Source: Gluconobacter potus (GTDB lineage: Bacteria > Pseudomonadota > Alphaproteobacteria > Acetobacterales > Acetobacteraceae). Taken from it: DNA of 64,000 nucleotides. The stretch covers positions 62,001 through 126,000 of the forward strand of contig NZ_JABCQF010000003.1 of assembly GCF_015244705.1 (NCBI RefSeq). Reading direction: 5' to 3'. Below are positions 1-43,414 of the stretch, one piece after another. The notes beneath the pieces were generated by a model. The model was not told the origin of the DNA, made no database searches, and saw nothing but the letters and a program-made list of their open reading frames with translations. Position 1 is the stretch's first letter; every line of letters begins with the position of its first letter. A program made the position numbers and the translations under genes.

Positions 1-1
1 C

Positions 2-748
2 GCGAGTTACGGCATGGCTGAGGCAACACTCGCCATCAGCTTCGCCCCGCTCAACACCGGCATCCAGACCGACACGATCGATCTGCGCCGCTTGGAGAAG
101 GACGGTATTGCCGAGCCTTCCAACGATCCGTCCCATCCGCTGCGGACCTTTGTCCTGTGCGGCGAGGCCCTTCCCGATCATCAGATCGAAGTCCGCGACG
201 CCGCAGGACATGATCTGGCGGACCGGCAGGTTGGCACCGTTTACGTGCGTGGACCGAGTCTCATGTGCGGCTATTTCCGCCGTCCCGATGAGACCGAAGC
301 CGTCCTCGATGCGGATGGCTGGCTGAACACGGGTGATCTTGGCTATCACCTCAATGGCCAGATCGTCGTCACCGGCCGCGCTAAGGACCTGATCATCATC
401 AACGGCCGCAATATCTGGCCGCAGGATCTGGAATGGTCCGCCGAAAGCGAGATCCCCACCCTGCGGTCGCGTGACGTGGCCGTCTTCTCCGTGGATGGCG
501 ACGAAGGCGAGAAGATCGTGGCACTCGTCCAGTGCCGCGCGACCGAGGATGAGAGCCGCAACCAGCTCCGCGACGAGGTCACGAGTCTGTTCCGCCGCCA
601 GCACGGCGTGGATGTCGACGTCATTCTTGTGCCGCCGCGCACGCTTCCCCAGACCTCGTCCGGCAAGCTGACCCGCGCAAAGGCCAAGACCATGCTGCTC
701 TCCGGTCAGTTCGAACAGCAGCCAGAAACCACGTCTTCGGTCGCCTGA
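2..748 (+). CDS. Fatty acyl-AMP ligase, C-terminal part (5' end outside window)
   Basis: The reading frame is open from base 2 (residues ASYGMAEATLA, the A5-type motif of adenylate-forming enzymes), so the gene starts upstream of the window. The visible 248 residues cover the end of the large adenylation subdomain (TGDLGY, then GRAKDLIIINGRNIWP, the hinge/A8 region typical of fatty acyl-AMP ligases) and the small C-terminal subdomain ending in QTSSGKLTRAKAK, which carries the conserved lysine. Such enzymes activate a fatty acid as acyl-AMP and load it on an acyl carrier protein. The next gene is exactly such a carrier, and a serine palmitoyltransferase-like gene follows, so the likely job is supplying acyl-ACP for long-chain base synthesis. 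Family confidence is high; the pathway role is inferred from context. Confidence 0.88.
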   Translation, partial: ASYGMAEATLAISFAPLNTGIQTDTIDLRRLEKDGIAEPSNDPSHPLRTFVLCGEALPDHQIEVRDAAGHDLADRQVGTVYVRGPSLMCGYFRRPDETEAVLDADGWLNTGDLGYHLNGQIVVTGRAKDLIIINGRNIWPQDLEWSAESEIPTLRSRDVAVFSVDGDEGEKIVALVQCRATEDESRNQLRDEVTSLFRRQHGVDVDVILVPPRTLPQTSSGKLTRAKAKTMLLSGQFEQQPETTSSVA

Positions 749-862
749 TCCCGAACCGGCTCCATCTGCCCTGCTGCCTGAAAAGGCAAAGGGGTGGCGA
801 AAGGGGCCGGTTTGGAGCATAAGGCTTGCCCAAGATTGCATAGACACCGAGAGTTGAAGTCC

Positions 863-1117
863 ATGACTGACAGCGTCGCCGGTATTTCCGGAATGATCAT
901 TGAGAAACTGCTTGCTAATCCGAAAGTTCCCCGGGACATCGATGGCAACAGCAAGATTGTCGAAGACCTGGCCTTTGACAGCCTGGCCGTCATGAACTTC
1001 GTCATGGAAATCGAAGACGAACTCGACGTCTCCGTCCCGCTCGACAAGCTGGCCGATATCCGCACTATCAACGACCTTGCCGGCTGCCTGCACACGCTGA
1101 AGGTCGCCCACGCGTGA
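863..1117 (+). CDS. Acyl carrier protein, dedicated to the sphingolipid locus
   Basis: A protein of 84 residues with the phosphopantetheine attachment motif DLAFDSLAVM; the modified serine is Ser40. It is distinct from the housekeeping AcpP at 15986-16225, which has the usual GADSL motif. I chose the ATG at 863 because the longer in-frame upstream stretch (from 794) is not ACP-like. It sits 114 bases after the acyl-AMP ligase, and its stop overlaps the GTG start of the next gene (GTGA), so translation of the two is probably coupled. In Caulobacter and Zymomonas a specialised ACP adjoins the serine palmitoyltransferase gene, which supports a role as acyl donor for that enzyme. Confidence 0.88.
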   Translation: MTDSVAGISGMIIEKLLANPKVPRDIDGNSKIVEDLAFDSLAVMNFVMEIEDELDVSVPLDKLADIRTINDLAGCLHTLKVAHA

Positions 1118-2307
1118 CCGATATTTTCGCCAAGCACCAGGGGCTGCGCGAAGCCTATGAGGGCCTGACCGCAGCGTCGCCCCGGAACCCGTTCGAGGTC
1201 GTAATCGAGCGGCCGATCTCCGCAAGTGTCGGGATTATCGAAGGGCGCGAAACGCTGCTGTTCGGGACCAACAACTATCTTGGTCTCAGCCAGTCGAAGA
1301 AAGCCATCGAAGCAGCCGTGGAAACGGCCGAGACGATGGGCGTCGGCACGACGGGCTCCCGCATTGCGAACGGGACCTTCGGTCTGCACCGCAAGCTGGA
1401 GGCAAAGCTCGCCGAGTTCTTCCGCCGCAAGCACTGCATGGTGTTCTCGACCGGCTATCAGGCCAATCTGGGCACGATCTCAGCTCTGGTGAACAAGGAC
1501 GACGTCCTGCTGCTCGATGCGGACAGCCATGCCAGCATCTATGACGGCGCCAAGCTGTCCGGCGCACAGGTCATCCGCTTCCGCCACAACGATCCGGTCG
1601 ATCTGGAAAAGCGTCTGGCACGCCTGAAGGACCACACGGGTGCCAAGCTCATCATCGCCGAGGGCATCTACTCCATGACGGGCAATGTCGCCCCGCTGGA
1701 CAAGTTCGTCGACATCAAGACGCGCCACGGCGCGTATCTGATGGCTGACGAAGCCCATTCATTCGGTGTTCTGGGTGCGCATGGCCGTGGCGTTGCGGAA
1801 ATGCAGGGCTGCGAGGACGGGATCGACTTCGTGGTCGGGACCTTCTCCAAGTCCCTCGGAACCGTGGGCGGCTACTGCGTCACGAACCATGACGGCGTGG
1901 ACCTGATGCGTCTGTGCTCGCGTCCCTACATGTTCACGGCGTCCCTGCCCCCGGAAATCATCGCAGCCACCATGGCGGCGCTTGAAGACATGCAGGCCCG
2001 CCCAGAACTGCGGACAAAGCTTCAGGAAAACGCAGCCCGCCTGCATGCGGGGCTCCAGAAGGTCGGCCTCAAGACGGGCGAGCACGTCTCCCCGGTGGTC
2101 GCCGTGACGCTGGAGACCGTGGATCAGGCCGTGGGTTTCTGGAACGCGCTGCTGGAAAACGGGGTCTATGTGAATCTCTCTCTCCCCCCGGCCACGCCTG
2201 ACAACCGGCCGCTGCTTCGCTGCTCGGTCATGGCAGCCCATTCCCCCGAGGAAATTGACCGCGCCGTTGCAGTCTTCGGCGAAGTCGCCAGACATTTCGG
2301 GCTGTAA
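1114..2307 (+). CDS. spt: Serine palmitoyltransferase-type alpha-oxoamine synthase
   Basis: A 397-residue, PLP-dependent alpha-oxoamine synthase. The PLP lysine is Lys246 in GTFSKSLGT; the cofactor-contacting residues are His139 (DADSHAS) and Asp212/His215 (MADEAHSFG). This family condenses an acyl thioester with an amino acid: serine palmitoyltransferase, 8-amino-7-oxononanoate synthase (BioF), 2-amino-3-ketobutyrate ligase (KBL) and ALA synthase all share the fold. The adjacent dedicated ACP and fatty acyl-AMP ligase argue for serine palmitoyltransferase making 3-ketosphinganine in the cytoplasm. The start is a GTG overlapping the ACP stop. A strong terminator follows directly. BioF or KBL cannot be fully excluded from sequence alone. 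Confidence 0.85.
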   Translation: MTDIFAKHQGLREAYEGLTAASPRNPFEVVIERPISASVGIIEGRETLLFGTNNYLGLSQSKKAIEAAVETAETMGVGTTGSRIANGTFGLHRKLEAKLAEFFRRKHCMVFSTGYQANLGTISALVNKDDVLLLDADSHASIYDGAKLSGAQVIRFRHNDPVDLEKRLARLKDHTGAKLIIAEGIYSMTGNVAPLDKFVDIKTRHGAYLMADEAHSFGVLGAHGRGVAEMQGCEDGIDFVVGTFSKSLGTVGGYCVTNHDGVDLMRLCSRPYMFTASLPPEIIAATMAALEDMQARPELRTKLQENAARLHAGLQKVGLKTGEHVSPVVAVTLETVDQAVGFWNALLENGVYVNLSLPPATPDNRPLLRCSVMAAHSPEEIDRAVAVFGEVARHFGL

Positions 2308-2313
2308 TCCATA

Positions 2314-2344
2314 AAAAAGGGGGATCCACCGGATCCCCCTTTTT
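2314..2344. terminator. Bidirectional terminator between convergent lipid genes
   Basis: A perfect 14-base stem (AAAAAGGGGGATCC paired with GGATCCCCCTTTTT) closes a 3-base loop. The A-run and T-run flanks make it usable from both strands. It serves spt (ends 2307) and the minus-strand gene ending at 2348. Confidence 0.93.
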
Positions 2345-2347
2345 GAT

Positions 2348-3286
2348 TCAGGCTTTCGAACGCGCCAGAAGTCCCCGCGCGCGCCACAGAAGCCGGGGCA
2401 GCATCACAAGCGGATGCCGGCTCTCGAAGGGCGAGAGCTGCATGTCAAAACCCGTATGGCGCTGGATCTTCCAGGCCAGATAGGACGCGCCGTTTTCAAA
2501 CGTAAAGGCGGCCTTCAGCAGTCTGGCCACATTGCGTGGCCGTCCGGATGTCTGGATCAGCGCCCAGCGACGGGCCGCTTTCCGACGAAGCTCCTCGTGA
2601 ATGACGGGTTCAAGCCTGTCGCCATGAGCCGAGAACTGAAGATGTCCCCGCGCCCACCCCAGCGTCAGCAGGGCAGCGTAACGTGCCTCCTGTCCTTCCA
2701 GAATACTGTTGCCCCGGCCCTTTTTCTCGACCCGAAGCTCGGACGCATAGGTATGGGCAAAAAGAGTCTGCCAGAACTCCACCGCCGTCATGGACGCCTG
2801 ACCCAGAAGCGCCGCCCAGCAGGCCGCCGTCGTCACACAGCCCGCGATCAGTGACAGAATGGCATCCGCGCTTTGCGGATCCCGCACCCAGACCAGCCGC
2901 ACGGGCTGACAGAACCGCGCCCAGATTGTTGTGTCGAGCGCGCCGAGCCCCGTTCGGGCTTCGAACTGCGCCTGTGACAGTACTGCGATCTTTGCTCTCA
3001 GAACCTGGCCGTCATGACGGAATTCGGAATAACGGACATTGGGCGGCAGGACGAGATTACCGGTCCGGGCCACCAGTCCGCCCGCAAAGCCCGCGGCGTT
3101 TTCGGTAATGATGTAGAAGTCGAGAATACCGTCCGGATCAGCTTTACGCAGGAGCGAGCCGTAGAACAGCACCCCCAGGGGCAGAACGGGACAGGCACGG
3201 GCCAGCGCATCGGCAAAAGCGCCCACGCCTGGATCGACCGGCGTCGTCAGTTCGCCGATCAGGCGCTGTTCGAGCGCATCAGGCAT
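2348..3286 (-). CDS. Tam41-like nucleotidyltransferase (possible phospholipid/ceramide cytidylyltransferase)
   Basis: A 312-residue protein. Near residues 40-60 it has FYGSLLRKADPDGILDFYI, a nucleotidyltransferase Gly-Ser followed by an Asp-Phe, arranged as in Tam41-type CDP-diacylglycerol synthases. Its C-terminus (KAAFTFENGASYLAWKIQ) resembles the amphipathic end of Tam41. I chose the start at 3286 because it overlaps the stop of the upstream kinase by 8 bases (ATGCCTGA), suggesting coupled translation; an upstream in-frame start would run far into the kinase. Kinase plus cytidylyltransferase-like partner suggests a route from lipid to lipid-1-phosphate to CDP-lipid. The Tam41 assignment rests on motif recognition and is moderate; the substrate is unknown. 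Confidence 0.62.
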   Translation of the reverse strand: MPDALEQRLIGELTTPVDPGVGAFADALARACPVLPLGVLFYGSLLRKADPDGILDFYIITENAAGFAGGLVARTGNLVLPPNVRYSEFRHDGQVLRAKIAVLSQAQFEARTGLGALDTTIWARFCQPVRLVWVRDPQSADAILSLIAGCVTTAACWAALLGQASMTAVEFWQTLFAHTYASELRVEKKGRGNSILEGQEARYAALLTLGWARGHLQFSAHGDRLEPVIHEELRRKAARRWALIQTSGRPRNVARLLKAAFTFENGASYLAWKIQRHTGFDMQLSPFESRHPLVMLPRLLWRARGLLARSKA

Positions 3287-4238
3287 GAAGGAACCGGAAG
3301 CGCGATGCCTGCTCCAGACGCAGGACACCGCCCGGCGCCGCGCTGAAGACCTCGCCATCGAGCACGAAATCGCTTTCCGTCACCAGCGTCATGTCGTCCG
3401 TCCGGCCACTGACATAATCCGGGTGACGACGCAGCCAACGCGGTGCACGTCCGCACAGAAGGGCGACTGTCGCCCGGAGCAGACTGTCCGGCCAGGCGCT
3501 TACATCCAGATAACGCAGCCCTTCGACATTGGGCTCTGCATCCCAGAAGGGCCAGATCCCGCGGGACAGGCGCGAAAGCCCTGTCGTCAGGAACATGAAG
3601 CTCTGTCCGTCATAGACATGGCCGCCGGTCTCGATCCTCAGCGGATCACCCCGGAGCCACTCCTCGCGGCTTTTGCGAAACATGAGGCTGACGAATGTCG
3701 AGAGCAGCGTGATGCCGACCGCAAGATCATGGGGCGCGAAACGCAGGACGGTCGGCGAATGGGCAATCCGGACGGCGCGTGCATATCCCGCGCAGCCCCC
3801 GAACAGGCCAAGCACGGGCATCCGGTCGGTTCCGGGCCAGGACAGGCGGATCGGGGTTCGCACGCTGGAGCGCAGGCCGCCCTGCCGCAGACGCTGGATC
3901 GCCTCCATCCCGCGCAGGCCGAAACCGACATCCCCGGCAATAAGGTTCGTGTTGCCAGACGCCAGGACCACGATATCCGGGAGCCTGTCCGCAGGATAAG
4001 CGCGCGCGATGGCGGTCAGGGCCGTGCTGACCGTCCCGTCGCCGCCATCGATGAGGATGGTGTCGATCCCACGCTCACAAAGCTGGCGGACATGTTCGGT
4101 TGTCCCCTCCCGACTATCTGAAGGCACGAAATCCTTCCCCAGAAGGGCCTGGGCCTCGACAGCAAAACTGGAACCGTTCCGGCGGTTTTTCCGGCTACGG
4201 GCATTATGGATCAAGGCAATGCGCACTAGGTGAGGCAA
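3279..4238 (-). CDS. Diacylglycerol/ceramide kinase-like lipid kinase
   Basis: A 319-residue protein with the DAGK catalytic domain: N-terminal IALIHNARSRKNRR, then IDGGDGTVSTALTAI (the GGDGT nucleotide loop) and ASGNTNLIAGDVG further on. Family members phosphorylate diacylglycerol, ceramide or sphingoid bases; Caulobacter uses a kinase of this type as ceramide kinase. Its position next to the serine palmitoyltransferase unit favours a sphingolipid substrate. The first possible start is TTG at 4238; a GTG at 4226 would give MRIALIHNARS and is an equally good choice. It is first in a two-gene minus-strand unit with the Tam41-like gene and divergent from the phosphoesterase operon. Confidence 0.8.
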   Translation of the reverse strand: MPHLVRIALIHNARSRKNRRNGSSFAVEAQALLGKDFVPSDSREGTTEHVRQLCERGIDTILIDGGDGTVSTALTAIARAYPADRLPDIVVLASGNTNLIAGDVGFGLRGMEAIQRLRQGGLRSSVRTPIRLSWPGTDRMPVLGLFGGCAGYARAVRIAHSPTVLRFAPHDLAVGITLLSTFVSLMFRKSREEWLRGDPLRIETGGHVYDGQSFMFLTTGLSRLSRGIWPFWDAEPNVEGLRYLDVSAWPDSLLRATVALLCGRAPRWLRRHPDYVSGRTDDMTLVTESDFVLDGEVFSAAPGGVLRLEQASRFRFLHA

Positions 4239-4365
4239 TCTTCGTATGGCGTTCGGCTATGCGGGCGGGTCTAGCACGGCTATGATGGAACTGCCAGAAC
4301 ATGGCATCCCGGCACGCCCGGATGCCGGCTTCTGACGTGGATACTGACAAGGCCCTTTTCTGATC

Positions 4366-5286
4366 ATGACCCCTGACCTGCCCGCAGATCCCCTCTCGTC
4401 GCGGCAAACGTCCCCTGTCACCCCCACTGTCACACTGGCCCATATTTCGGACCCGCACCTGCCCCCGCCCCCGGTTCACTGGCGTGAGGCGCTCAACAAG
4501 CGCGCCCTGAGCCTTCTGTCATGGAAGAAGCACCGCCGGTACGTCCATCTCGAACAGACCTGCACAGCCCTGGTAAAAGATATCGGGCGCTCGGACGTGG
4601 ACACCATCCTCGTCAGCGGGGACCTGACCAATTTCGGAACGCCCGACGAGTTTGCCGCGGCTGCACGCTGGCTCGATGCCCTGCCGGCTCCTGCGCTCGT
4701 GATTCCCGGCAATCATGACTGCATGGTCCGCCAGCCGGCCTCGGCCGGTCTGCACCAGTGGGAACGCTGGTCCGCGCGGCAATATCCGTATGTCCGCATC
4801 CAGAACGGGGTTGCGATCGTCGGCGTCAATTCCAGCATTCCGACAGCGCCTTTCATGGCATGCGGGCGGGTCGGCCGCAGGCAGCGGGACCGGCTTGAGG
4901 CGCTTCTGGAAGAGCTGGGCAAAGAGGGGTTGTGCCGGGTCGTGATGATCCATCATCCGCCCCGGCGTGGACTCGTACCCTGGCGCAAATCCCTGCTCGA
5001 TCACCGTGAAGTCGCCGCTGTTTTCAGGCGGGCTGGCGCGGAGATCGTGCTGCACGGGCACTCCCATAACGCAACGCTGACCCATATCGCCGGAACCGAC
5101 ATTCCACTTCTCGGCGTGGCGTCCGCCTCCCTGACGGATGAACGCCCACACCGGCAGGCCTGCTGGAATCACCTGAGCATCCACCCATATAGGAAGGGCT
5201 GGACAATCACTCTGGCACGTCACCGGCTCGATGGCTCCGTCAGTGAACGGGCGTCATGGAACCGTTCGGGAAGGACAGAGGCGTGA
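4366..5286 (+). CDS. Calcineurin-like metallophosphoesterase
   Basis: A 306-residue protein with the metallophosphoesterase motifs in order: AHISDPHLP (DxH), VSGDLTNFG (GDxxN-like), PGNHDCM (GNHD), MIHHPPRR and LHGHSHNA (GHxH). These ligands bind a dimetal centre. There is no signal peptide, so it should be cytoplasmic. It heads a six-gene operon in which each neighbour overlaps the next by 4 bases, and it is divergent from the lipid kinase. By position it could remove a phosphate or nucleotide from a lipid or headgroup intermediate, as LpxH does in lipid A synthesis; that substrate assignment is inference only. Confidence 0.85.
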   Translation: MTPDLPADPLSSRQTSPVTPTVTLAHISDPHLPPPPVHWREALNKRALSLLSWKKHRRYVHLEQTCTALVKDIGRSDVDTILVSGDLTNFGTPDEFAAAARWLDALPAPALVIPGNHDCMVRQPASAGLHQWERWSARQYPYVRIQNGVAIVGVNSSIPTAPFMACGRVGRRQRDRLEALLEELGKEGLCRVVMIHHPPRRGLVPWRKSLLDHREVAAVFRRAGAEIVLHGHSHNATLTHIAGTDIPLLGVASASLTDERPHRQACWNHLSIHPYRKGWTITLARHRLDGSVSERASWNRSGRTEA

Positions 5287-6437
5287 AACAGCGGGCCAAC
5301 ATTCTGGACCGTTATCTGCTGACGCAGATGGCGCCACCATTCGCCATTGCGCTTCTGGCAATGCTGGTCGCGCTGCTGCTGGAACGCCTGCTGTCTCTGT
5401 TCGACTATCTGGCTTCGGCCGGAAGTTCGCTTGGAACATGTATCGCGCTCCTGACGGATCTTCTGCCCCATTACTTCGGCATTGCCCTGCCCGCGGCGCT
5501 GTGTATCGCGGTGTTCCTCACCATCCGGGGCATGAGCGACAACAACGAGATCGACGCGCTTCAGGCCGGGCGGGTCTCGCTGATGCGAATCAGTCGCCCT
5601 TTCATGATCGTAGGGCTGCTTCTCGGGGCGGCGAGCGTGTTCCTGTACGGCTATATCCAGCCCGTGGCCCGCTATGACTATCGCGCGGGCTTCTATTTTG
5701 CCGAGCATACCGGCTGGGCCCCGCATCTTCAGGCGGGAATGTTCGCCTCCACGTCCAGCAAGGCCGTCATGACGGCCGACAGTGTCAGCCATGCCGGCAC
5801 CCGCCTCAGACGGGTCTTCATCCGGGAAGTGAATGCCAACGGCGTGGCTCACATCATCACGGCCCGGACCGGCGCGCTGACCATTTCGGAAAAGACCCGC
5901 AGTACGCGCCTCGACCTGTGGAACGGGGAAATCGTGGATGATCCGTTCCAGGCCACCAAACCCCACAAACCGACTGTGACCCATTTCGAACATGTCGTCC
6001 GCGTTATCGACCGACCGAACAAGGAAACCTCTTTCCGCTCCCGCGGGACCGACGAGCGCGAACTGACCCTGTTCGAACTGGCGCATGACCTGCGTTATGG
6101 CCTGCCCGGCATCGAATACCGCACACTCCGGGCGGAAATGGATTTCCGTATGGCCCGCGCCATCGCCATCCCGTTCATTCCGCCGCTGGCGGTCGCGCTG
6201 GCCATCAGCGCCCGGCGGAGAAAATCCGTCTGGGGACTGATTGCGGTGGCCGTGATCCTGATCGGCTTCGACCAGACGCTCATGTTCGGCCACAGCCTCG
6301 CCTCGACCGGACGTCTTCCGATCTGGCTGGCGATCTGGGTACCGGAACTGCTGTTCTGCGTGGGCTGTCTGGCAGCCCTGCTGCGCCGTTCCCGAGGGTC
6401 ATGGCGGCGACGCAAGCTCACAAGGGCACCAGCATGA
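5283..6437 (+). CDS. LptF-like (YjgP/YjgQ family) lipid export permease
   Basis: About 384 residues with the YjgP/YjgQ layout: an N-terminal membrane block (LDRYLLTQMAPPF onward, with further spans to about residue 125), a large periplasmic beta-rich domain, and a C-terminal membrane block from about residue 305. The segment MSDNNEIDALQAGRVSL is the conserved cytoplasmic loop that contacts the LptB ATPase. I chose the GTG at 5283 because it makes a GTGA overlap with the preceding stop and has GGAAGGA about 8 bases upstream; an ATG at 5256 is an alternative. LptF/LptG normally extract LPS from the inner membrane. Here the pair is embedded in a sphingolipid locus, so sphingolipid export is plausible. 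Confidence 0.8.
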   Translation: MKQRANILDRYLLTQMAPPFAIALLAMLVALLLERLLSLFDYLASAGSSLGTCIALLTDLLPHYFGIALPAALCIAVFLTIRGMSDNNEIDALQAGRVSLMRISRPFMIVGLLLGAASVFLYGYIQPVARYDYRAGFYFAEHTGWAPHLQAGMFASTSSKAVMTADSVSHAGTRLRRVFIREVNANGVAHIITARTGALTISEKTRSTRLDLWNGEIVDDPFQATKPHKPTVTHFEHVVRVIDRPNKETSFRSRGTDERELTLFELAHDLRYGLPGIEYRTLRAEMDFRMARAIAIPFIPPLAVALAISARRRKSVWGLIAVAVILIGFDQTLMFGHSLASTGRLPIWLAIWVPELLFCVGCLAALLRRSRGSWRRRKLTRAPA

Positions 6438-7543
6438 GCGACTCCACACCTGCCATGCCCCGCCATGTCCTGATCAAGGCACTCAACCGCGCCCTTCTGG
6501 GGCGGTTCGCGCTGTGCGGGGCCGTCCTCGTCTCGCTGCTGGAAATCCTGGCTCTTCTTGAAAAGACGACGCCGATCCTGAACCGGCATCTCGGCTTTCG
6601 CGGTATCCTGACCTTCGCCTTCCTGCACCTGCCTGCCCTGAGCATCGACATCCTGCCGCTCGCCTTCATGGTGGGCACGCTGTTCCTGCTCACGCAGATG
6701 ACCCTGTCGAGCGAAATCTCGGCCCTGCGGGCAGCCGGGCTTTCAACGCCCGCGTTGTACCGTCTTCTCCTGCCCGCAGTGCTGATCGCGGGGATCGGGG
6801 GAACCTGCGCCCAGTACTGGCTGGTCCCGGTCTGCGAGAACGCTCTCACGACATGGTGGAACCGCACGGACCCGCTCGCGGGGCAGGACGGGCAACCCGA
6901 GGACAATATCCTGTGGTTCCGCGCAGGCCCCACGCTGGTCCGGATCGGGCAGATCGCCCAGGGCGGCACGTTCCTGCGGGACGTGACGATCTATCACCGG
7001 GACAGCACGGGCCTACTGACCGGCACCGAACACACGAATGTCCTGACTTACCGTGACGGGCAGTGGCATCCCGATGGCGCGCAGGATCTTTCCCTGACCA
7101 ATGACAAGTCGTTCGTAAATGTTACAAAGGGCGACAGCACCTTCGTCATTCCGGCCACACCCTCGGTCATCATGACGCTCTCGCAGAACGGAGCGACCGT
7201 CACGCCAGCGCAGGTCAGCGCCATTCTTCACAAGGGCGCACCCGCAAGTCTACCCCGGGCCACGTATCGTATGGCCCTCTTCAGCGGGATGATTTTACCT
7301 GTCGAAATTGCAGTAATGCTTCTATTGACGCTCCCGGTGATCTATATCCCTCCGCGTGCAGGACTTCGAAATCCACTGCCAGTTTATGTTCTGGCCGCTG
7401 GAATGGGTTTCGTCATCCTGCAGGGAATGATTTCCGCACTCGGAAACGCGGGAACGCTGCCAGCACCGCTGGCCGTCAGCGTCGGACCGCTCCTGGGGAC
7501 CCTTCTCGGGCTGACCTGGCTTTTGCGGATGGAGGAACGATGA
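6434..7543 (+). CDS. LptG-like (YjgP/YjgQ family) lipid export permease
   Basis: A 369-residue partner of the preceding permease. It has membrane spans at about 20-45, 55-90 and 100-125, a periplasmic domain, and spans from about 285 to 365. The loop QMTLSSEISALRAAGLS matches the family's cytoplasmic coupling helix. The start at 6434 overlaps the upstream stop (ATGA). With its partner it would form an asymmetric FG heterodimer needing an LptB-type ATPase; none is encoded in this operon, so the general LptB or another ATPase would have to serve. It could also simply be the organism's only LptG, which cannot be decided from this window. Confidence 0.8.
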   Translation: MSDSTPAMPRHVLIKALNRALLGRFALCGAVLVSLLEILALLEKTTPILNRHLGFRGILTFAFLHLPALSIDILPLAFMVGTLFLLTQMTLSSEISALRAAGLSTPALYRLLLPAVLIAGIGGTCAQYWLVPVCENALTTWWNRTDPLAGQDGQPEDNILWFRAGPTLVRIGQIAQGGTFLRDVTIYHRDSTGLLTGTEHTNVLTYRDGQWHPDGAQDLSLTNDKSFVNVTKGDSTFVIPATPSVIMTLSQNGATVTPAQVSAILHKGAPASLPRATYRMALFSGMILPVEIAVMLLLTLPVIYIPPRAGLRNPLPVYVLAAGMGFVILQGMISALGNAGTLPAPLAVSVGPLLGTLLGLTWLLRMEER

Positions 7544-8355
7544 GCAACTTCAAGGCGCCCTGGCGCAACATGTCCGCCATCAGGACGGGTCGCAGCTTCG
7601 ATCTGGGAAAGATGAACCTCCCGCAGCTGTGGTTCGCCTATCTGACCTATCCGACGATCCTGCTCTATTTCGCGCTGATCGCTGTGTCCGCCTGGGCCGC
7701 CCTGCATTTCTCGACTGCGCTGTGGGCGACGCTCATTCCCGTTCCCGTCGTGATCGTGGTCTATCCGCTGGCCTGGTATGCGATCCACCGCTTCATCCTT
7801 CACGGGCGCTGGCTGTACCGCAACCACTGGACCGCTTCGCTGTGGAAGCGCATCCATTTCGACCATCATCAGGACCCGCATCTGCTGGACGTGCTGTTCG
7901 GCTCCCCGCTGAACACGGTGCCGACCATGGCGATCATCACAATGCCCATCGGCGGACTGATCGCGGGATGGAGCGGTGCGTTCTGTGCGCTTTCGACAGC
8001 GCTGGTCATGACCTGCATCTACGAATTCTTCCACTGCATCCAGCATCTGGCCTACAAGCCGCGCTGGAAATGGGTGGCGGACATCAAGCAGCTTCACGTC
8101 CTGCACCATTTCCACGATGAGGACGGCAATTACGGCATCACGAACTACGTGCCAGACCGCCTGTTCAGCAGTTTCTACCGTGAGGCCCGTGACCGGCCCC
8201 GCAGCAAGCACGTCTTCAACCTCGGTTACGATATCGAGGAAGCCCATCGTTATCCGTGGGTCATGGATCTGACGGGCTCTCCCCCGCGAGACCGTCCCGA
8301 CGGCGCACGTCCGGCCTCCGCCCGCGCGGCAGCAGACCGTAACCGCGCGGCATGA
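7540..8355 (+). CDS. Membrane fatty acid hydroxylase superfamily (likely sphingolipid hydroxylase)
   Basis: A 271-residue membrane protein with the eight-histidine signature of the fatty acid hydroxylase/sterol desaturase superfamily: HRFILH, HFDHH, HCIQH and HVLHHFHDEDGNYG. These bind a di-iron centre on the cytoplasmic face. Hydrophobic spans lie at about residues 30-90 and 120-165; the last 30 residues are a Pro/Ala/Arg-rich tail. Acetic acid bacteria are known to contain ceramides with a 2-hydroxyacyl chain, so fatty-acyl 2-hydroxylation of ceramide, or long-chain-base hydroxylation, is the natural guess here. It overlaps both neighbours by ATGA, placing it firmly in the lipid operon. Confidence 0.86.
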   Translation: MSNFKAPWRNMSAIRTGRSFDLGKMNLPQLWFAYLTYPTILLYFALIAVSAWAALHFSTALWATLIPVPVVIVVYPLAWYAIHRFILHGRWLYRNHWTASLWKRIHFDHHQDPHLLDVLFGSPLNTVPTMAIITMPIGGLIAGWSGAFCALSTALVMTCIYEFFHCIQHLAYKPRWKWVADIKQLHVLHHFHDEDGNYGITNYVPDRLFSSFYREARDRPRSKHVFNLGYDIEEAHRYPWVMDLTGSPPRDRPDGARPASARAAADRNRAA

Positions 8356-9107
8356 CGCTTCCGGTTCTGGTTCTCGCCGGGTCCCGGGACGGCGAGAACG
8401 ATGTACTTGCGAAACTCGGTCAGGTTTCCCACAAGGCACTGCTTCCCGTCGCCGGTCAGCCCATGCTGGCCCGCGTGCTCGATACGATTGCCCGCACGCC
8501 CGGCCTTGGGCCCGTCACGATCAGCATCGAAAACCCGGACTGCATCAGGGATCTCGCAGGTGACGCCACGATCCTGCGTTCGGCCCCTTCTCCAAGCGAG
8601 AGCGTGGCCGAAGCCATTGCCCGGATCGGCACGCCCTGTCTGGTGACGACAGCCGATCATGCGCTTCTGCGCCCGGAATGGATTCAGGAGTTCCTCGCCA
8701 AGGCACAGGGCTGCGATCTTGCGGCCGGCGTGGCGCTGCGTGCGACGGTTGAGCGCGACGTGCCCGGCACGAAACGGACCTATATCCATCTGTCTGACAT
8801 GAGCTTTTCCGGCTGCAACCTGTTCCTGATCGGCACGCCGAAAGGACGGAATGTTATCGAACTGTGGAAGCGCCTTCAGCAGAACCGCAAACGCCCGCTC
8901 CGGATGGCCCTGACACTTGGGATCGGGACCCTGCTCCGGGCCATGACCCGTACGCTCGATTCCACGGCCCTGTATCGCCGTATCCGGACGCTGACGGGCG
9001 CAAATGTGCGTCTGGTGACGCTCTCGGACGGGCGCGCGGCCGTGGACGTGGACAAACCCTCGGACCTGACGCTGGCTGAAAAAATCCTGGCCCGGACGAC
9101 ACCATGA
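8352..9107 (+). CDS. MobA-like NTP transferase domain protein
   Basis: A 251-residue protein beginning with LPVLVLAGSRDG and continuing with HKALLPVAGQPMLARVL, the layout of MobA-like/sugar-phosphate nucleotidyltransferases. The usual glycine-rich GGxGTR loop is altered to GSRDGEND. The metal-binding region looks like TTADHALL. Such enzymes couple an NTP to a sugar- or polyol-phosphate; inositol-1-phosphate cytidylyltransferase is one member of the wider group. It lies between the hydroxylase and a glycosyltransferase with 4-base overlaps on both sides, so it probably activates a headgroup for the lipid made here. The exact substrate cannot be read from sequence. Confidence 0.72.
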   Translation: MTLPVLVLAGSRDGENDVLAKLGQVSHKALLPVAGQPMLARVLDTIARTPGLGPVTISIENPDCIRDLAGDATILRSAPSPSESVAEAIARIGTPCLVTTADHALLRPEWIQEFLAKAQGCDLAAGVALRATVERDVPGTKRTYIHLSDMSFSGCNLFLIGTPKGRNVIELWKRLQQNRKRPLRMALTLGIGTLLRAMTRTLDSTALYRRIRTLTGANVRLVTLSDGRAAVDVDKPSDLTLAEKILARTTP

Positions 9108-10174
9108 AAATCGCCTACATCATCAATTCCCTCGAATGTGGCGGCGCACAGCTTCCCATTCCGGATATCGTGTCCTTTCTGAAAGCCCGAGGCGGGGATG
9201 TGACCGTCTTCGCCCTGGCCCGCAAGGACGGCCTCGCCATCCCGCTGATCGAAGCCGCAGGCATCCCCGTGCGCGTCCGGGAAGGCACGACGCGGGACCA
9301 TATCGCGGCCTATCGCTGGCTGCGGGACGAGATGGAGGCGTTTCAGCCGGACCTGATCTGGACGTCGCTAAGCCGCGCCACGCTTCTGGGACAACTGGTT
9401 GCCCTGCGCCACAAGACCCCGACGGTTCACTGGCAGCATTGCGGGCGTCTGAAGAAGGCCAACGCGTTCCTGCTGAGGCTGTGCCGCCCCTACACGACGC
9501 TCTGGGTCGCCGACTCCCAGTCCGTCATCACCTTTGCCGCGAAGGAACTCGGCCTTACCGACAATTTCGTCGCCTGGCCCATTTTCCGCGCCAATCCGGA
9601 CGCTCCTGTGGCCACGCCGTGGAAAGACGGCGAAGTTGTCCGCGTCGGCTCGCTGGGACGCCTGAACCCCGTCAAGGCGTATGACATTCTGTGCGAGGCC
9701 GTGGCTCTTCTGAAAGACCATCCCGACCTGCCGCCATTCCGCCTTCAGATCGCAGGTGATGGTCCCGAACACGCAGCGCTTCAGGCCCGCATCACGGCCG
9801 GGAATCTGCCGATCGACCTTCTGGGCTACGAATCAAAGCCGTTTGATTTTCTGAAAACACTGCATCTTTACGTCCAGTCGTCGCACTGGGAGGGCATGTG
9901 TGTCGCGGGGCATGAAGCCATGTCCTGTGGCCTTCCGGTCGTCGCCACCCCTGCGGGTGAACTGCCATCGAGCATTCTCGACGGTGAGACGGGACGCATC
10001 GTGCCGTTCGACAATGCCCCTGCCCTTGCGGCAGCTCTGGCGGACCTGATCGGCAGACCGGCCGATCTCGCGGCCATGGGCGCCCGGTCCCGCAAACGGG
10101 TGCTGGAACGCTTCGGGCCTGAAGCGTTCGTTAGGCATGGCAATGCCGTGCTGGATCGTATCCCGGGCTTCTGA
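9104..10174 (+). CDS. GT4-type glycosyltransferase
   Basis: A 356-residue GT-B glycosyltransferase. The N-terminal acceptor domain starts IAYIINSLECGGAQ; the C-terminal donor domain has VGSLGRLNPVKAYDIL and the EX7E-like region HWEGMCVAGHEAMSCGLPV. There is no signal peptide or clear membrane span, consistent with action at the cytoplasmic membrane surface. It is last in the coupled operon that begins at 4366. A role in attaching a sugar to ceramide or another lipid is the likeliest reading; the donor sugar is unknown. Confidence 0.85.
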   Translation: MKIAYIINSLECGGAQLPIPDIVSFLKARGGDVTVFALARKDGLAIPLIEAAGIPVRVREGTTRDHIAAYRWLRDEMEAFQPDLIWTSLSRATLLGQLVALRHKTPTVHWQHCGRLKKANAFLLRLCRPYTTLWVADSQSVITFAAKELGLTDNFVAWPIFRANPDAPVATPWKDGEVVRVGSLGRLNPVKAYDILCEAVALLKDHPDLPPFRLQIAGDGPEHAALQARITAGNLPIDLLGYESKPFDFLKTLHLYVQSSHWEGMCVAGHEAMSCGLPVVATPAGELPSSILDGETGRIVPFDNAPALAAALADLIGRPADLAAMGARSRKRVLERFGPEAFVRHGNAVLDRIPGF

Positions 10175-10195
10175 GCGCCCGGGGATACGCGCTTC

Positions 10196-11086
10196 TCAGG
10201 CGCCGAAGATCCGGCGCTTCAGATTGAGCAGGTCCCGCCTGGGGCCAATCCCGATTTTCTTGACGTCAATCAGCGTCACCTGCCCGGCTGCGGACAGGGT
10301 GTGCATCCCGTCCGGATACCGCTTCCGCAAAGACGCCGGGATGGAAATCGACAGGCCGAGCGTGACTTTCGGCAGCCCCCGTTCCAGCCCTTCAATTTCC
10401 AGCAGCCGGATCCCGCGACCATAGGTTCCGCGGCAGTCCTGCGTGGGCAGGAAGATCTTTCCATCCACGAGAACCGGCGTACCCCCGGGACGTGCCCCTG
10501 CCCGGTCGTTCAGGAAAAGCCCGAGGTTTTTCCATGACCCCATCAGGGTGTCGGCCACGGAAATGTTCAGAAGACTCTGCCGTTCGTCCTTGTTGCCCGC
10601 AGGCGTCCAGAACATCCACCAGCGATCGGCATACTGAAATGGCGTGGCATCGATCGCGGCTTCGGCGAAATCGAACGCCTCGACCCGCTCCCACTCACGC
10701 GGAAACGATTTTGCCCGATAGAGCGAAAGATGGCCCGAAGCGCTGGCCTCGGGCAGCATATAGACCTCGCCCTCATGCGCGAACACGAACGGGTAGGACA
10801 GATGCCAGGGCTCCTGCAGAACGGTTTCACGCGACAGCAGACGGCCCGTTCCGTCATAGATCAGGACCTCGATCGTTCCCGTGGGGTTGCGGTAATCGAA
10901 GGCCTCGGCAAAGACGTACAGCTTTCCGTCCCGCCAGAATCCGAACGGATCGGCCAGAAAACAGTGATCCCCGATATCGGGCAGAGTCGTGATGGGAAAG
11001 CCGTTCAGACTGGCCGCTTCGACCACCTCAGCCAGAGGCGCATGAACGATGGCGCATCGCCAGTGATCCGTTCGCAAAAATGGCAT
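10196..11086 (-). CDS. GINT1 N-terminal-domain-like beta-propeller protein
   Basis: A 296-residue protein of repeated aromatic and glycine-rich blades (FLADPFGFWRDGKLYVFAEA, then YPFVFAHEGEVYMLPEAS, then DRWWMFWTPAG, then GTPVLVDGKIFLPTQD), consistent with a five-bladed propeller. The pattern matches the domain at the N-terminus of plant glucosamine inositolphosphorylceramide transferase 1 (GINT1), which also occurs alone in bacteria. There is no signal peptide. It converges on the GT4 gene with only 21 bases between, so a GINT1-like two-part arrangement (propeller plus separate transferase) is conceivable. Family recognition is moderate; function is unproven. Confidence 0.62.
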   Translation of the reverse strand: MPFLRTDHWRCAIVHAPLAEVVEAASLNGFPITTLPDIGDHCFLADPFGFWRDGKLYVFAEAFDYRNPTGTIEVLIYDGTGRLLSRETVLQEPWHLSYPFVFAHEGEVYMLPEASASGHLSLYRAKSFPREWERVEAFDFAEAAIDATPFQYADRWWMFWTPAGNKDERQSLLNISVADTLMGSWKNLGLFLNDRAGARPGGTPVLVDGKIFLPTQDCRGTYGRGIRLLEIEGLERGLPKVTLGLSISIPASLRKRYPDGMHTLSAAGQVTLIDVKKIGIGPRRDLLNLKRRIFGA

Positions 11087-11168
11087 GAGGCACTCTCCCG
11101 TAAAAATACAGCTTCAAAAAAAGCATGCCGGGGCAGACGTAGAGCGCAGATCGGGGCAGGATGGAACC

Positions 11169-11708
11169 ATGAGTACGGTTCTTGCCGAAAATCCCGCTGC
11201 AACATCCTGTGGCCTGCCGGAAACGCAACTGGCCATCCGGCGCGCCGTCCTCGGATTGTGCCGGACAATGAACTGGGCCGCCATCAATGAATTCGCCCTT
11301 CCCGCCGCGGGACGCCGCGCGGACATCATGGCACTCCTGCCCGATCATTCCCTGACCTGCATCGAGATCAAATCCGGCCTGCGCGATTTCCAGACCGATC
11401 AGAAATGGCCCGAATACCGGGACTGGTCCGACCGGCTGTTTTTTGCGGTGGATGACGGCTTTCCGCTGGATCTGATTCCGCCGGATGTGGGCCTGATCGT
11501 CGTCAGCGTCAGCGCCGTCCCCGCTGCCCTGCGCGACAGTATTCTGGCAGAATGCACGATCATTCGGGAGCCCGTGCTCCACAAGCTGGCTCCCGCACGG
11601 CGGCGCACGCTGCTGCATCTGTTTGCGACAACGGCCGCAAGCCGTCTCATGAGCCTTGAAGACCCCGCCATTACGGCATCCCTCCGCGCTGCACGGCGCA
11701 CAGACTAG
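11169..11708 (+). CDS. mmcB: MmcB family DNA repair protein
   Basis: A 179-residue protein matching MmcB, a small PD-(D/E)XK-type nuclease-like protein of alphaproteobacteria linked to DNA damage tolerance in Caulobacter. Visible core: RADIMALLPDHSLTCIEIKSG, with the nuclease-fold D and ExK, followed by DFQTDQKWPEYRDWSDRLFFA. I chose the ATG at 11169; the longer frame from 11085 has no family support. It is divergent from the GINT1-like gene and lies 9 bases upstream of an inositol-monophosphatase-like gene. Confidence 0.83.
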   Translation: MSTVLAENPAATSCGLPETQLAIRRAVLGLCRTMNWAAINEFALPAAGRRADIMALLPDHSLTCIEIKSGLRDFQTDQKWPEYRDWSDRLFFAVDDGFPLDLIPPDVGLIVVSVSAVPAALRDSILAECTIIREPVLHKLAPARRRTLLHLFATTAASRLMSLEDPAITASLRAARRTD

Positions 11709-11717
11709 GACAGTTCC

Positions 11718-12506
11718 ATGACCTTCGATCCGATTGCCGTCCGCCTCGAAGCCGCCCGTTCCGTTGTGCGCGATGCGGCCCGGCTGGCCCTCTCCCTGCG
11801 CCCTGCTCCGGGTGGTCCGACCGGGACCCTCAAGGGCCGGCAGGACTACCTGACCGAGACGGATGGCGCCGTGGAAGCCTTTGTCAGCCGCCGCATCCAG
11901 GAGCTTTTCCCCGAGGATGGCTTTCAGGGCGAGGAAAATGGTGCGACGCGTCAGGGCGGCTTCCGCTGGGTCGTGGACCCGATCGACGGTACCTCCAATT
12001 ATGCACGCGGCCGTGACCGCTGGTGCGTGTCGCTCGGCCTGCTGGACGGAGACGAACCCGTAGCTGGCGTGATCGATGCTCCGGCGCTTGGCGAAGTCTT
12101 CACGGCCCAGAAGGGCAAGGGCGCGTTCCTGAACGGCAAGCCGATCAAGGCGTCCCCCATCACGAACACGCAGGAAGCCATGATCGAAATGGGCTGGTCC
12201 GCGCGCGTGACGACCGAGACTTTCAACGAGAAGATCGCCGCCATCATGGCGCTCGGCGCAATGCCGCGCTCCGGCGGCTCCGGTGCACTCGCGCTGGCGG
12301 ACGTGGCGTGTGGCCGCTCCGACGGATATCTGGAAATCGTCATCCAGCTCTGGGACGTGGCGGCAGCACTCGTCATCCTTTCGGAAGCCGGGGCCGCGGT
12401 CTCGCCCTTCCTTCAGACAGGCGGCCTGACGGGCGGGGCAACCATTCTTGCCGCCGCGCCCGGCATTGCGAAGGCCCTGTCCGCCGCCGTTAACGTGGAA
12501 ATCTGA
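11718..12506 (+). CDS. Inositol monophosphatase family protein
   Basis: A 262-residue member of the Mg2+-dependent, Li+-sensitive phosphatase family. The metal-binding motifs are visible: GEENGA (Glu ligand), VVDPIDGTSNYARG (DPIDGT) and IQLWDVAAALVILSEAGA (WDxAA). Family members hydrolyse inositol-1-phosphate, histidinol phosphate, PAP or fructose-1,6-bisphosphate, and these cannot be separated reliably by eye. Given the adjacent lipid locus with a GINT1-like protein, a role in inositol metabolism is attractive; a HisN-type histidinol phosphatase is the main alternative. Confidence 0.82.
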   Translation: MTFDPIAVRLEAARSVVRDAARLALSLRPAPGGPTGTLKGRQDYLTETDGAVEAFVSRRIQELFPEDGFQGEENGATRQGGFRWVVDPIDGTSNYARGRDRWCVSLGLLDGDEPVAGVIDAPALGEVFTAQKGKGAFLNGKPIKASPITNTQEAMIEMGWSARVTTETFNEKIAAIMALGAMPRSGGSGALALADVACGRSDGYLEIVIQLWDVAAALVILSEAGAAVSPFLQTGGLTGGATILAAAPGIAKALSAAVNVEI

Positions 12507-12594
12507 CATCCCTTCCGCCCCGCACTCGTGATTTGGCCGCATTTGGCGCATAGTGCGGGAAATATTCCTAAGATGACTGCAGAAGGTATCCTCC

Positions 12595-13473
12595 ATGACC
12601 CTGTCCGGTCTCCTGCGTAAGACCATGCTCGTCGCTTCGGGCTGCGCCGCCCTGTCAGCCTGTTCCGATGCTCCCCAGACCACGGCCAGCCAGCAGCAGA
12701 TCATTGTCGATCGCGCCACGCTGGCGGTTCAGGATCTCTTCACGGGAACAACAGCACAGTCCCGCTCCCAGAAGCTGCTGGCCGAAGCCAAGGCCGTCAT
12801 GGTCTGCCCGTCCGTGCTGAACATGTCCTTCGGGATCGGCGGCTCGGGTGGTCGCTGCGTGCTTCTGAGCCGCGACGCCCGCGGATCATGGTCCGACCCG
12901 GCATTCTACCGCCTGGGCACGGCCTCGATGGGGCTTCAGCTTGGCGTGCAGAGCACGGAAACGATCCTGTTCATCATGTCCCAGCGCGGCATTCAGGCCA
13001 TTCTGGACAGCCAGTTCAAGTTTGATGCCTCTGCGTCCGCCTCCTTCGCCAGCATCGGCTCGGGTCTGGAGGACAGCACGGCTGGCGCACACAACACCGA
13101 CATCTACGCCGCCCAGAAGAACGAGGGCCTGTATGCCGGAGCTGCGCTGGGTGGTTCCAAGCTGACCGTCGATAGTGGCGCCAACCGGGCCTATTACAAC
13201 CAGACCGTCGGCCCCGAGGACATCATTGTGACGATGCGTGTCAACAACCCGTCTGCCGATCCGCTGCGCCGCGCCCTGATGTCCGTGGCGAAGCTGCCCG
13301 TCAGCAGCACAGCCACATCCCGCGTGTCACAGGCGGTCACCGCCGCGCGCACGACCGCCACGCAGGACGTCGTCGGCAACAACCCGTATCCGACAACTTA
13401 CGATTCAACGCGCCCGTATTCCGCACAGGCGTCCAGCGTGCAGAGCCAGACCCTCGCCCCGCTGAAGCATTGA
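12595..13473 (+). CDS. SYLF/Ysc84-domain lipoprotein
   Basis: A 292-residue protein with a lipoprotein signal peptide (lipobox LSAC, Cys23 becoming the lipidated N-terminus), then a SYLF/Ysc84 domain. Typical features are KAVMVCPSVLNMSFGIGGSG, glycine-rich and serine-rich beta stretches, and GAALGGSKLTVDSGAN. SYLF domains bind lipids. The C-terminal 50 residues are Ser/Thr/Ala-rich and probably disordered. It is probably anchored in the envelope facing the periplasm. A hairpin terminator follows. Confidence 0.82.
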   Translation: MTLSGLLRKTMLVASGCAALSACSDAPQTTASQQQIIVDRATLAVQDLFTGTTAQSRSQKLLAEAKAVMVCPSVLNMSFGIGGSGGRCVLLSRDARGSWSDPAFYRLGTASMGLQLGVQSTETILFIMSQRGIQAILDSQFKFDASASASFASIGSGLEDSTAGAHNTDIYAAQKNEGLYAGAALGGSKLTVDSGANRAYYNQTVGPEDIIVTMRVNNPSADPLRRALMSVAKLPVSSTATSRVSQAVTAARTTATQDVVGNNPYPTTYDSTRPYSAQASSVQSQTLAPLKH

Positions 13474-13476
13474 GAC

Positions 13477-13508
13477 AACCCTGCCGTCCTCTCCGGAGGA
13501 CGGGGGTT
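13477..13508. terminator. Hairpin terminator between convergent genes
   Basis: Stem CCGTCCTC paired with GAGGACGG around a TCCG loop, extended outward by AACC/GGTT. It lies between the SYLF gene (ends 13473) and mltG (ends 13508 on the minus strand). There is no long T-run, so it may be only moderately efficient. Confidence 0.7.
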
Positions 13509-14557: not shown

Positions 14558-14574
14558 TGAAAACGAACCCTTCC

Positions 14575-15861: not shown

Positions 15862-15897
15862 CGATGCCTCTTGTCTCACGTTATGTCCGGGTCTTGC

Positions 15898-15924
15898 AGC
15901 CGGGCCTCAGGAAAAGGCCCGGCT
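15898..15924 (-). promoter_or_regulatory. Intercistronic hairpin between acpP and fabF (fabF-proximal)
   Basis: A perfect 10-base stem (AGCCGGGCCT/AGGCCCGGCT) with a 7-base loop, not followed by a T-run on the transcribed strand. It may set a processing site or partial attenuation between the highly expressed acpP and fabF. Confidence 0.55.
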
Positions 15925-15957
15925 GGTCTTCCGCCTCGTATGACGAGACGGGAATCC

Positions 15958-15977
15958 GGAGCCGGAAAACCGGCTCC
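15958..15977 (-). promoter_or_regulatory. Intercistronic hairpin just after acpP
   Basis: A perfect 8-base stem (GGAGCCGG/CCGGCTCC) with an AAAA loop, 8 bases beyond the acpP stop. A hairpin here could protect the 3' end of an abundant acpP message. No T-run follows. Confidence 0.55.
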
Positions 15978-15985
15978 AGTCAGCC

Positions 15986-16225
15986 TCAGGCTGCCTTCTG
16001 CTTCTCGATGTAGTCGATGGCATCCTTGACGGTTGCGATCTTCTCGGCTGCATCTTCCGGGATCTCGACGGAGAAGGCTTCTTCGAAAGCCATGACCAGC
16101 TCGACCGTATCGAGGCTGTCAGCGCCCAGGTCGTCGATGAACGACGCGTCCGGCGTTACCTTGCTTTCGTCCACACCGAGGTGCTCGACAACGATCTTCT
16201 TTACCTTGTCAGCAATATCGCTCAT
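15986..16225 (-). CDS. acpP: Acyl carrier protein (housekeeping)
   Basis: A 79-residue acidic protein with the classic [18 protein letters not shown] motif; Ser37 carries 4'-phosphopantetheine. The start at 16225 (MSDIADK) matches the usual ACP N-terminus; an upstream in-frame ATG at 16246 is unlikely. It is the central acyl carrier for fatty acid synthesis, between fabG and fabF as in most proteobacteria. Confidence 0.97.
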
Positions 16226-43018: not shown

Positions 43019-43024
43019 CTCTTT

Positions 43025-43405: not shown

Positions 43406-43414
43406 GAGATCCGC

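Follow-up and report, generated by a model that had tools for sequence, protein, structure and literature searches.

What kind of lipid does an acetic acid bacterium make with the genes gathered around its serine palmitoyltransferase (SPT) gene, and by what route might that lipid be exported? The window analysed here is a 64,000-nucleotide stretch of the Gluconobacter potus genome, G000:C3:62001-126000 (G stands for a genome, C for a contig and L for a fetched neighbourhood; G000, of 3.42 Mb in 67 contigs, is the window's genome and L004 its spt neighbourhood), and the locus in question comprises the 14 genes within its positions 2-12506, whose protein families were assigned by Pfam and NCBIfam profile matches with bit scores. 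The answer that we consider likely is that the locus is a variant, found in one lineage of acetic acid bacteria, of the phosphosphingolipid system known from Caulobacter, and probably a rewired relative of it that makes a different final lipid. What leads to this answer is that the core genes travel together in 72 neighbourhoods, that SPT and the gene called CpgC below co-occur genome-wide, that the same gene set is found in named Caulobacter and Phenylobacterium loci, that one product matches Tam41, that a second LptF/LptG pair stands beside the canonical one, that a reductase-type gene adjoins the diverged ceramide synthase gene in 16/16 genomes compared, and that the hydroxylase has a profile match to SCS7. 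Gene families, gene order, co-inheritance, folds and what was not found are here direct observations.

Genes that travel with serine palmitoyltransferase

On the plus strand the locus starts as a known pathway does. The 3′ end of a gene for an AasR-type acyl-ACP synthetase of the fatty acyl-AMP ligase family (2..748, cut by the window edge; NF006624 375.8 bits; the complete gene is L004:14938-16749, and the whole protein gives 148.8 bits with AMP-binding) is followed by acpR for a dedicated, second, acyl carrier protein (863..1117; PP-binding 42.7 bits; start read from the sequence) and, with a GTGA overlap, by spt (1114..2307; NF047599 617.9 bits against a cut-off of 500; PDB SPT 2x8u, E 2.4e-118). 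Such an spt with adjoining acpR and aasR is the Rhodobacterial SPT module, and the same three-gene pathway start is GOX2058-GOX2056 in Gluconobacter oxydans (PMC9386255), where, as here, the AcpP gene is not far from spt (GOX2041 there, 15986-16246 here). Facing SPT on the minus strand (2348-4238), just as an initial annotation of this DNA had it, is a pair with a mutual overlap of 8 bases, a Tam41-like gene (2348..3286) and a lipid kinase gene (3279..4238). A plus-strand operon follows, in the order metallophosphoesterase (MPE, 4366..5286), LptF-type permease (LptF2, 5283..6437; PF03739 174.5 bits), LptG-type permease (LptG2, 6434..7543; PF03739 220.9 bits), fatty acid hydroxylase (FAH, 7540..8355), nucleotidyltransferase (NTP, 8352..9107) and glycosyltransferase (GT4, 9104..10174), and beyond it are a minus-strand GINT1_N-domain gene and plus-strand MmcB-like and inositol-monophosphatase-family genes. 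The coupling ascribed to this operon is real, as from MPE to GT4 the junctions are readable as four-base GTGA or ATGA start-stop overlaps (5283, 6434, 7540, 8352, 9104), those of LptF and LptG resting on the inner starts 5283 and 6434 and not on the outermost starts. All the gene types that the annotation named are present where it placed them, by Pfam or NCBIfam matches; what its list omitted was the operon-opening MPE gene and the MmcB-like gene (11085..11708).

Do these genes stay together in relatives? The family taken is a kinship group of 200 genomes including that of the window, and 74 of them have SPT above the NCBIfam cut-off. Neighbourhoods were fetched from 71 of the 73 other SPT genomes (G148 and G135 were left out) and from G111, which has an SPT fragment, making 72, and their gene content was compared by tblastn; several of their contigs are short, and absences in those are not firm. 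Lack of conserved linkage had been named in advance as what would refute a joint pathway; the comparison was run, and the linkage held. The Tam41-like gene is present in 53 of the 72 neighbourhoods, and with it the kinase in 53, NTP in 52, MPE, LptF and LptG in 51 each and FAH in 48, against none for kinase, NTP, MPE, LptF and LptG, and 6 for FAH, among the 19 without it. Orientation is kept as well: the Tam41-like gene and kinase are on the strand opposite to SPT in 53/53, while MPE, LptF, LptG, FAH and NTP, wherever they were found in these 53, share the strand of SPT. At the edges the order varies, with aasR, the flippase, the TagF-like gene and GINT1_N placed elsewhere in some (e.g., L052, L061, L064-L067).

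Genome-wide, 61 of the 200 have both SPT and the Tam41-like gene, 2 the latter only, 13 SPT only and 124 neither (Fisher p 1e-35, uncorrected for relatedness). The two apparent exceptions without SPT over the cut-off are G111, with its SPT fragment, and G051, where the gene has an oxoamine synthase as neighbour. SPT and the Tam41-like gene are both retained, on separate contigs, in three species of the genus to which the window belongs, and at least six of the 19 neighbourhoods without that gene come from genomes that have it elsewhere (G049, G114, G153, G103, G061, G058). The 13 family genomes without any copy (SPT neighbourhoods L039-L044, L056, L058, L062, L082, L092, L098, L105) form a second class of sphingolipid locus. 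In G051 the Tam41-like gene adjoins an oxoamine synthase that gives 275 bits with the SPT model, under the cut-off (G051:C41:13203-15222), perhaps for a different sphingoid-like base.

A probable phospho branch and its head group

With which known system is this gene set to be compared? When named genomes were scanned with an alignment of SPT sequences, the best 80 of 590 relatives included Caulobacter sp. AP07 (L196) and, as L189, a Phenylobacterium, both with the order LptC2, TagF-like, flippase, AasR, CerR, AcpR, SPT, CpgC, CpgB, CpgA, MPE, HIT, LptF2, LptG2, CerS, NTP, and CpgD in L189 only. This order fits the description of CC_1168-CC_1152 in Caulobacter crescentus (PMC11324152), where CC_1152-CC_1168 is a phosphosphingolipid cluster (PMC11324152, PMC12275187, PMC10331486). 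Mapping the CC numbers by order and family through Caulobacter sp. AP07 and the Phenylobacterium, and not from C. crescentus sequence itself, makes the window's Tam41-like gene CpgC, its kinase CpgB, MPE CC_1158 and NTP CC_1153, with the TagF-like gene upstream as CC_1167. Common to the two clusters are thus aasR, acpR, spt, the facing cpgC-cpgB, MPE, LptF2, LptG2, a CC_1153-type NTP, the flippase and the TagF-like gene; unlike in C. crescentus, CpgA and CpgD were not found here, there is no canonical CerR, CerS is diverged and elsewhere, and one LptC was detected, while FAH, GT4 and GINT1_N are additions.

The kinase (DAGK_cat 41.9 bits; GGDG in its translation) is by homology a CpgB relative and a ceramide kinase candidate, being in the same place as the Caulobacter sp. 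AP07 gene and 30% identical to it; CpgB of C. crescentus is a ceramide kinase (PMC10331486). Its partner, in the same place and on the same strand as the AP07 gene and 45% identical to it, is likewise a CpgC relative. As the facing pair are relatives of CpgB and CpgC, the branch is the phospho-sphingolipid one, and it is here that the initial annotation needs amending: its locus for sphingolipid synthesis, modification and export with conserved linkage stands, and the phospho branch had been missed. What would the CpgC relative do? A structure model has the fold of Tam41, the mitochondrial and bacterial CDP-diacylglycerol (CDP-DAG) synthase (PDB 6ig4, 7ecd), at 13% identity, the alignment being by VIA-align, which re-aligns only the top-ranked Foldseek matches. 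By analogy, the substrate proposed here is ceramide-1-phosphate, which the CpgC relative may activate with CTP to CDP-ceramide.

In C. crescentus, according to PMC11324152, CpgC is required for the first lipid, ceramide phosphoglycerate (CPG), and CC_1159, CC_1158, CC_1153 and CC_1152 for efficient formation of CPG2. For CpgA, CpgD, CerS and CerR, profiles were built from named and family loci and run on 39 genomes. Full-length CpgA (558-609 bits) is present in 7/39 and CpgD (370-414 bits) in the same 7, namely Caulobacter, Phenylobacterium and five family members. In the window's genome the profile search gave no match to CpgA, a CDP-alcohol phosphotransferase, at E 0.001, and for CpgD, a CTP:phosphoglycerate cytidylyltransferase, the best was 55 bits over part. 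With CpgA and CpgD not found, CPG2 extension by the Caulobacter route is not predicted. Might the window's NTP (NTP_transf_3 48.2 bits) be CpgD? Both carry NTP_transf_3, but in Phenylobacterium the CpgD-type gene is a gene of its own, on the minus strand next to the CC_1153 relative, and it is with this relative that the window's NTP aligns, so the identification was rejected. NTP is MobA/CofC-like, has 43% identity to the Caulobacter sp. AP07 gene adjoining CerS, and has 2dpw as its nearest PDB entry, with CMP-Kdo and IspD cytidylyltransferases as weaker matches. MPE (Metallophos 62.1 bits) is a CC_1158 relative by position, 41% identical to the AP07 gene, its best PDB match, which covers a short stretch, being a phosphohydrolase.

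Most puzzling is that NTP and MPE, the CC_1153 and CC_1158 relatives, are kept where CpgA and CpgD were not found, which suggests a role beyond the CPG2 step. Either they would act earlier than has been thought or they would serve a different head group here. CC_1153 and CC_1158 mutants of C. crescentus are reported to accumulate CPG; in keeping with earlier action, the CC_1153 mutant also accumulates ceramide (PMC11324152).

What of the added genes? FAH (PF04116 65.4 bits, with conserved histidines, as in Scs7/FA2H) is a candidate ceramide N-acyl hydroxylase. A profile of 15 relatives matches yeast SCS7 (4zr0), a ceramide fatty acid hydroxylase, at E 9.1e-11, as against E 0.055 for the single sequence. 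Its presence in six neighbourhoods without CpgC implies that it may act on the ceramide part. The initial annotation's statement that acetic acid bacteria have 2-hydroxylated ceramide was not confirmed by literature search. GT4 (Glycos_transf_1 94.9 bits) is accessory, being in 21/53 CpgC-bearing neighbourhoods. The GINT1_N-domain gene (10196..11086, minus; PF24793 123 bits), also accessory, has counterparts in 65 of the 200 family genomes, of which 50 also have CpgC and 15 do not, while 13 CpgC genomes lack it (p 1e-21, uncorrected for relatedness); it is within 20 kb of CpgC in 28 of those 50, and none was found in the five family genomes shown to hold CpgA. By its family description GINT1_N is the N-terminal domain of plant GINT1, an enzyme of inositol phosphoceramides. 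The plant protein carries a C-terminal GT64 catalytic domain; the 296-aa protein here has GINT1_N as its sole Pfam match, and its nearest PDB sequences are arabinanases (E 0.003).

Immediately upstream of the window come an alanine racemase gene, a gene for a flippase of the Wzx type (PF01943) and, before aasR, one for a transferase of no Pfam family. Flippase and transferase (L004:12441-14938) are directly upstream of aasR, the TagF-like transferase being L004:13802-14938 with its start taken from the ordered part of the model. That model is GT-B-like, and a sequence profile matches TagF-like Cps3D at E 0.0076; as UDP-GlcNAc 2-epimerases (rank 1) tie with TagF (rank 2) in the structure ranking, TagF was not accepted as a firm identity. 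CC_1167 and CC_1157 are called probably unrelated in PMC11324152. CC_1157 (HIT) is present in 5/53 CpgC-bearing neighbourhoods. The TagF-like gene, present in 32/53, ought not to be so dismissed, since the four CpgC-less neighbourhoods out of 19 that have it (L076, L087, L088, L090) all come from genomes with CpgC elsewhere. In 11 neighbourhoods (L045, L048, L050, L054, L057, L059, L068, L075, L079, L081, L091) the contig breaks off close to the TagF-like gene, at 3.6-4.1 kb upstream of spt. An rRNA operon as the reason found no backing: a scan of 8 loci, for the most part other than the broken contigs, turned up no tRNA, and 6.1 kb from one locus had no Rfam match. In the window, too, no tRNA was found, nor any Rfam match in positions 1-16000. 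Further out, L004:8440-11094 is an 884-aa open frame, TonB-dependent receptor-like by eye and matched in the close relative L089.

At the other end the MmcB-like gene (PF06319 207.2 bits) and the inositol-monophosphatase-family gene (IMPase; 11718..12506; PF00459 182.4 bits) are probably flank, outside the pathway. MmcB, IMPase and Ysc84 are present in 22, 35 and 37 of the 48 CpgC-bearing neighbourhoods without CpgA, in 0/5 with CpgA and in 0/19 without CpgC, and because of this distribution by CpgA and CpgC status the first two look like conserved chromosomal flank. The initial annotation was right that an inositol-phosphatase-like gene is there; as a pathway member it is improbable, distributing like flank and having HisN as its best NCBIfam match (144.4 bits, under the cut-off of 275.15), and it was not taken as support for an inositol lipid.

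Ceramide formation and proposed export

How is the ceramide itself formed, given that the locus has neither CerS nor CerR? CerS was found in 39/39 genomes, strongly in 10 (551-673 bits) and in diverged form in 29 including the window's (249-353 bits), the homologue of the latter being on another contig than the spt locus. CerR at 334-463 bits is in exactly the same 10 genomes; the other 29 have partial or weak matches only (<=136 bits). No canonical CerR orthologue was found in the window's genome by profile search, the best match being 111.8 bits over 2-248 of 313 (G000:C3:299415-300149), which was not accepted as CerR, since other genomes have comparable second copies (about 130-143 bits) alongside strong CerR.

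For 16 of the 29 genomes that lack a strong CerR match, the DNA around CerS was retrieved and compared. In the window's genome (pair L248:6605-8738) CerS is G000:C4:41604-42794 (minus), and divergent from it at 42934-43737 (plus) is a gene for a classical short-chain dehydrogenase/reductase (SDR; PF00106, 132.7 bits). This recurs in 15/15 other genomes and so is conserved beside CerS in 16/16, other CerS neighbours recurring in 5-11/15. Trimmed to its likely start, it gives 194-377 bits in the 15; aligned SDR and CerS starts are 55-282 bases apart, and a TGxxxGxG-type motif and YxxxK are present in 16/16. At 80 CerS-bearing SPT loci of other sets the best SDR match was 86 bits, CerS being flanked by 1 kb or more on each side in 59/80, a search made at the loci only and not in the rest of the CerR-bearing genomes. 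As the 16 genomes are related, these pairs are probably one event kept and not sixteen. The known 3-ketosphinganine reductases TSC10, FVT1 and BT_0972 are SDRs (PMC9278070), to which the present one, beside a ceramide synthase gene, is likened by family and motifs. We propose that this SDR, a candidate reductase, took over from CerR, which in C. crescentus is periplasmic and has been proposed to act post-acylation (PMC11087976). For Gluconobacter, PMC9386255 treats only five ceramide genes and takes GOX1849 for the reductase homologue, the acyltransferase being GOX2417. Elsewhere in the family, a second CerS-like gene (about 246 bits) adjoins, at G136:C5:41813-44094 and G091:C1:414728-417009, a second oxoamine synthase that the SPT model scores at 281-283 bits, possibly for a second N-acylated amino-lipid pathway.

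Sphingolipid transport in bacteria is stated to be unknown in PMC11324152; LptF2/LptG2 may provide it, by analogy with the lipopolysaccharide (LPS) exporter LptB2FGC, whose permeases are of the same LptF/LptG family. The window's genome has four PF03739 proteins in two distinct pairs, the canonical one (C1:843868-846158) and that of the locus. Compared with Caulobacter LptF2 the window's LptF scores 201 bits, and with the canonical LptF of its own genome 46; for its LptG the scores are 122 with Caulobacter LptG2 and 47 with the canonical LptG. A tree, with long-branch warnings, groups the locus pair with pairs from the sphingolipid loci of other families. Searched for in the window's genome, no second LptB is over the cut-off (one at 372 bits, the next 161), and LptC, weakly detected in general, gives one match, where the genomes of Caulobacter and Phenylobacterium have two apiece. 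With one LptB and one LptC found, the LptF2/LptG2 pair probably shares LptB and the bridge with the LPS system. "Complete", as the locus had been termed, was therefore too strong: CerS is on another contig, a canonical CerR was not found in the genome, and neither a second LptB over the cut-off nor a second LptC accompanies the second permease pair.

What the locus would make, and why it matters

The reactions and the cargo we infer as follows. AasR would load a fatty acid onto AcpR and SPT condense it with serine; the base would be reduced and N-acylated by the SDR and the diverged CerS, the divergent pair elsewhere in the genome, and FAH would hydroxylate the ceramide part. The CpgB relative would then give ceramide-1-phosphate and, on the strength of its fold and the Caulobacter work, the CpgC relative with CTP would give CDP-ceramide. 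An acidic phospho head group would be added and trimmed by MPE, by NTP, which is CofC-like, and, at loci that have it, by the TagF-like transferase; without CpgA and CpgD there would be no extension to CPG2, and GT4 and the GINT1_N protein may decorate instead. LptF2/LptG2, driven by the single LptB, would pass the lipid into the shared LptC bridge and so to the outer membrane.

Several points weigh against this scheme. Tam41 was not recognised by sequence, there being neither a Pfam nor an NCBIfam match and no Tam41 among the PDB sequence-profile matches; NTP and MPE relatives, needed in C. crescentus for CPG to become CPG2 (PMC11324152), are kept without CpgA and CpgD; FAH was not found in the Caulobacter sp. 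AP07 locus either; the TagF-like gene is in 32/53 CpgC-bearing neighbourhoods only; and the co-occurrence values and all p-values ignore phylogeny. Moreover, in two genomes of one genus, G102 (L108) and G027 (L109), the locus keeps CpgC, kinase, FAH and NTP but shows no MPE and neither permease gene. In a search of 28 genomes only G027 had no detectable LptC, and the pattern fits a dependence of LptF2/LptG2 on the bridge, with the qualification that LptC is weakly detected generally and that of the two genomes G027 alone was in this search.

Could the product, after all, be CPG2 itself, with CpgA and CpgD too diverged to be seen or their work done by NTP and the TagF-like protein? The retention of NTP and MPE in 52/53 and 51/53 and the TagF-like gene before aasR favour that, but we think it unlikely, as the window's genome gives no CpgA match and for CpgD 55 bits over part, and both proteins are seen at full length in the same 7/39 genomes, five of them in the same family. 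Family membership of LptF and LptG, together with the statement in PMC11324152 that sphingolipid transport is not known, leaves some small room for LptF2/LptG2 exporting a form of LPS or another glycolipid, their place beside spt being historical; we think this quite improbable, as a canonical pair exists, the second pair is in 51/53 neighbourhoods with CpgC and 0/19 without, and, subject to the long-branch warnings, the locus pair groups with those of other sphingolipid loci.

Very doubtful is a sugar-bearing sphingolipid without a phospho head group, the kinase pair then serving another lipid: the neighbouring GT4 and GINT1_N, and the 19/72 SPT neighbourhoods that lack the pair, would suit it, but the kinase and the CpgC relative accompany SPT in a constant orientation in 53/53, and GT4 is in 21/53 only. 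Lowest in our estimation, and likewise very doubtful, is an inositol phosphoceramide-like lipid with both the IMPase-family and GINT1_N genes in the pathway. The plant role of GINT1_N and its co-occurrence with CpgC bring it to mind, but the nearest models to the IMPase-family protein are HisN and its gene distributes as the flank does, and the GINT1_N protein here has no glycosyltransferase domain.

To the preferred reading, of a rewired Caulobacter-type phosphosphingolipid system, a bolder and distinctly tentative whole may be added, which we would rather doubt than expect. Sphingolipid synthesis would have been rewired at both ends: a KDSR-like SDR would have replaced CerR, perhaps restoring a eukaryote-like cytoplasmic order of steps, and the CPG2 extension would have been dropped for a new sugar-bearing phosphoceramide made via CDP-ceramide with the GINT1_N protein, as a bacterial counterpart of the glycosyl inositol phosphoceramides of plants, with export by LptF2/LptG2 sharing one LptB, LptC and bridge with LPS. 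Among the literature matches listed, ceramide phosphoglycerate terms occur only in Caulobacter papers, and no report of such a lipid or of head-group genes was found for acetic acid bacteria in a search that was without most subscription journals.

For the biology of the group, the Tam41 fold of CpgC makes a testable CTP-dependent reaction out of a step that PMC13228409 calls unidentified, and the CerS/SDR pair offers a candidate reductase for bacteria whose ceramide was given to people as food (trial cited in PMC8268314). With a second LptF/LptG pair, one LptB over the cut-off and one detected LptC, this lineage is a simpler case for the sphingolipid route to the outer membrane, which makes the sharing of the LPS bridge testable by a two-gene deletion.

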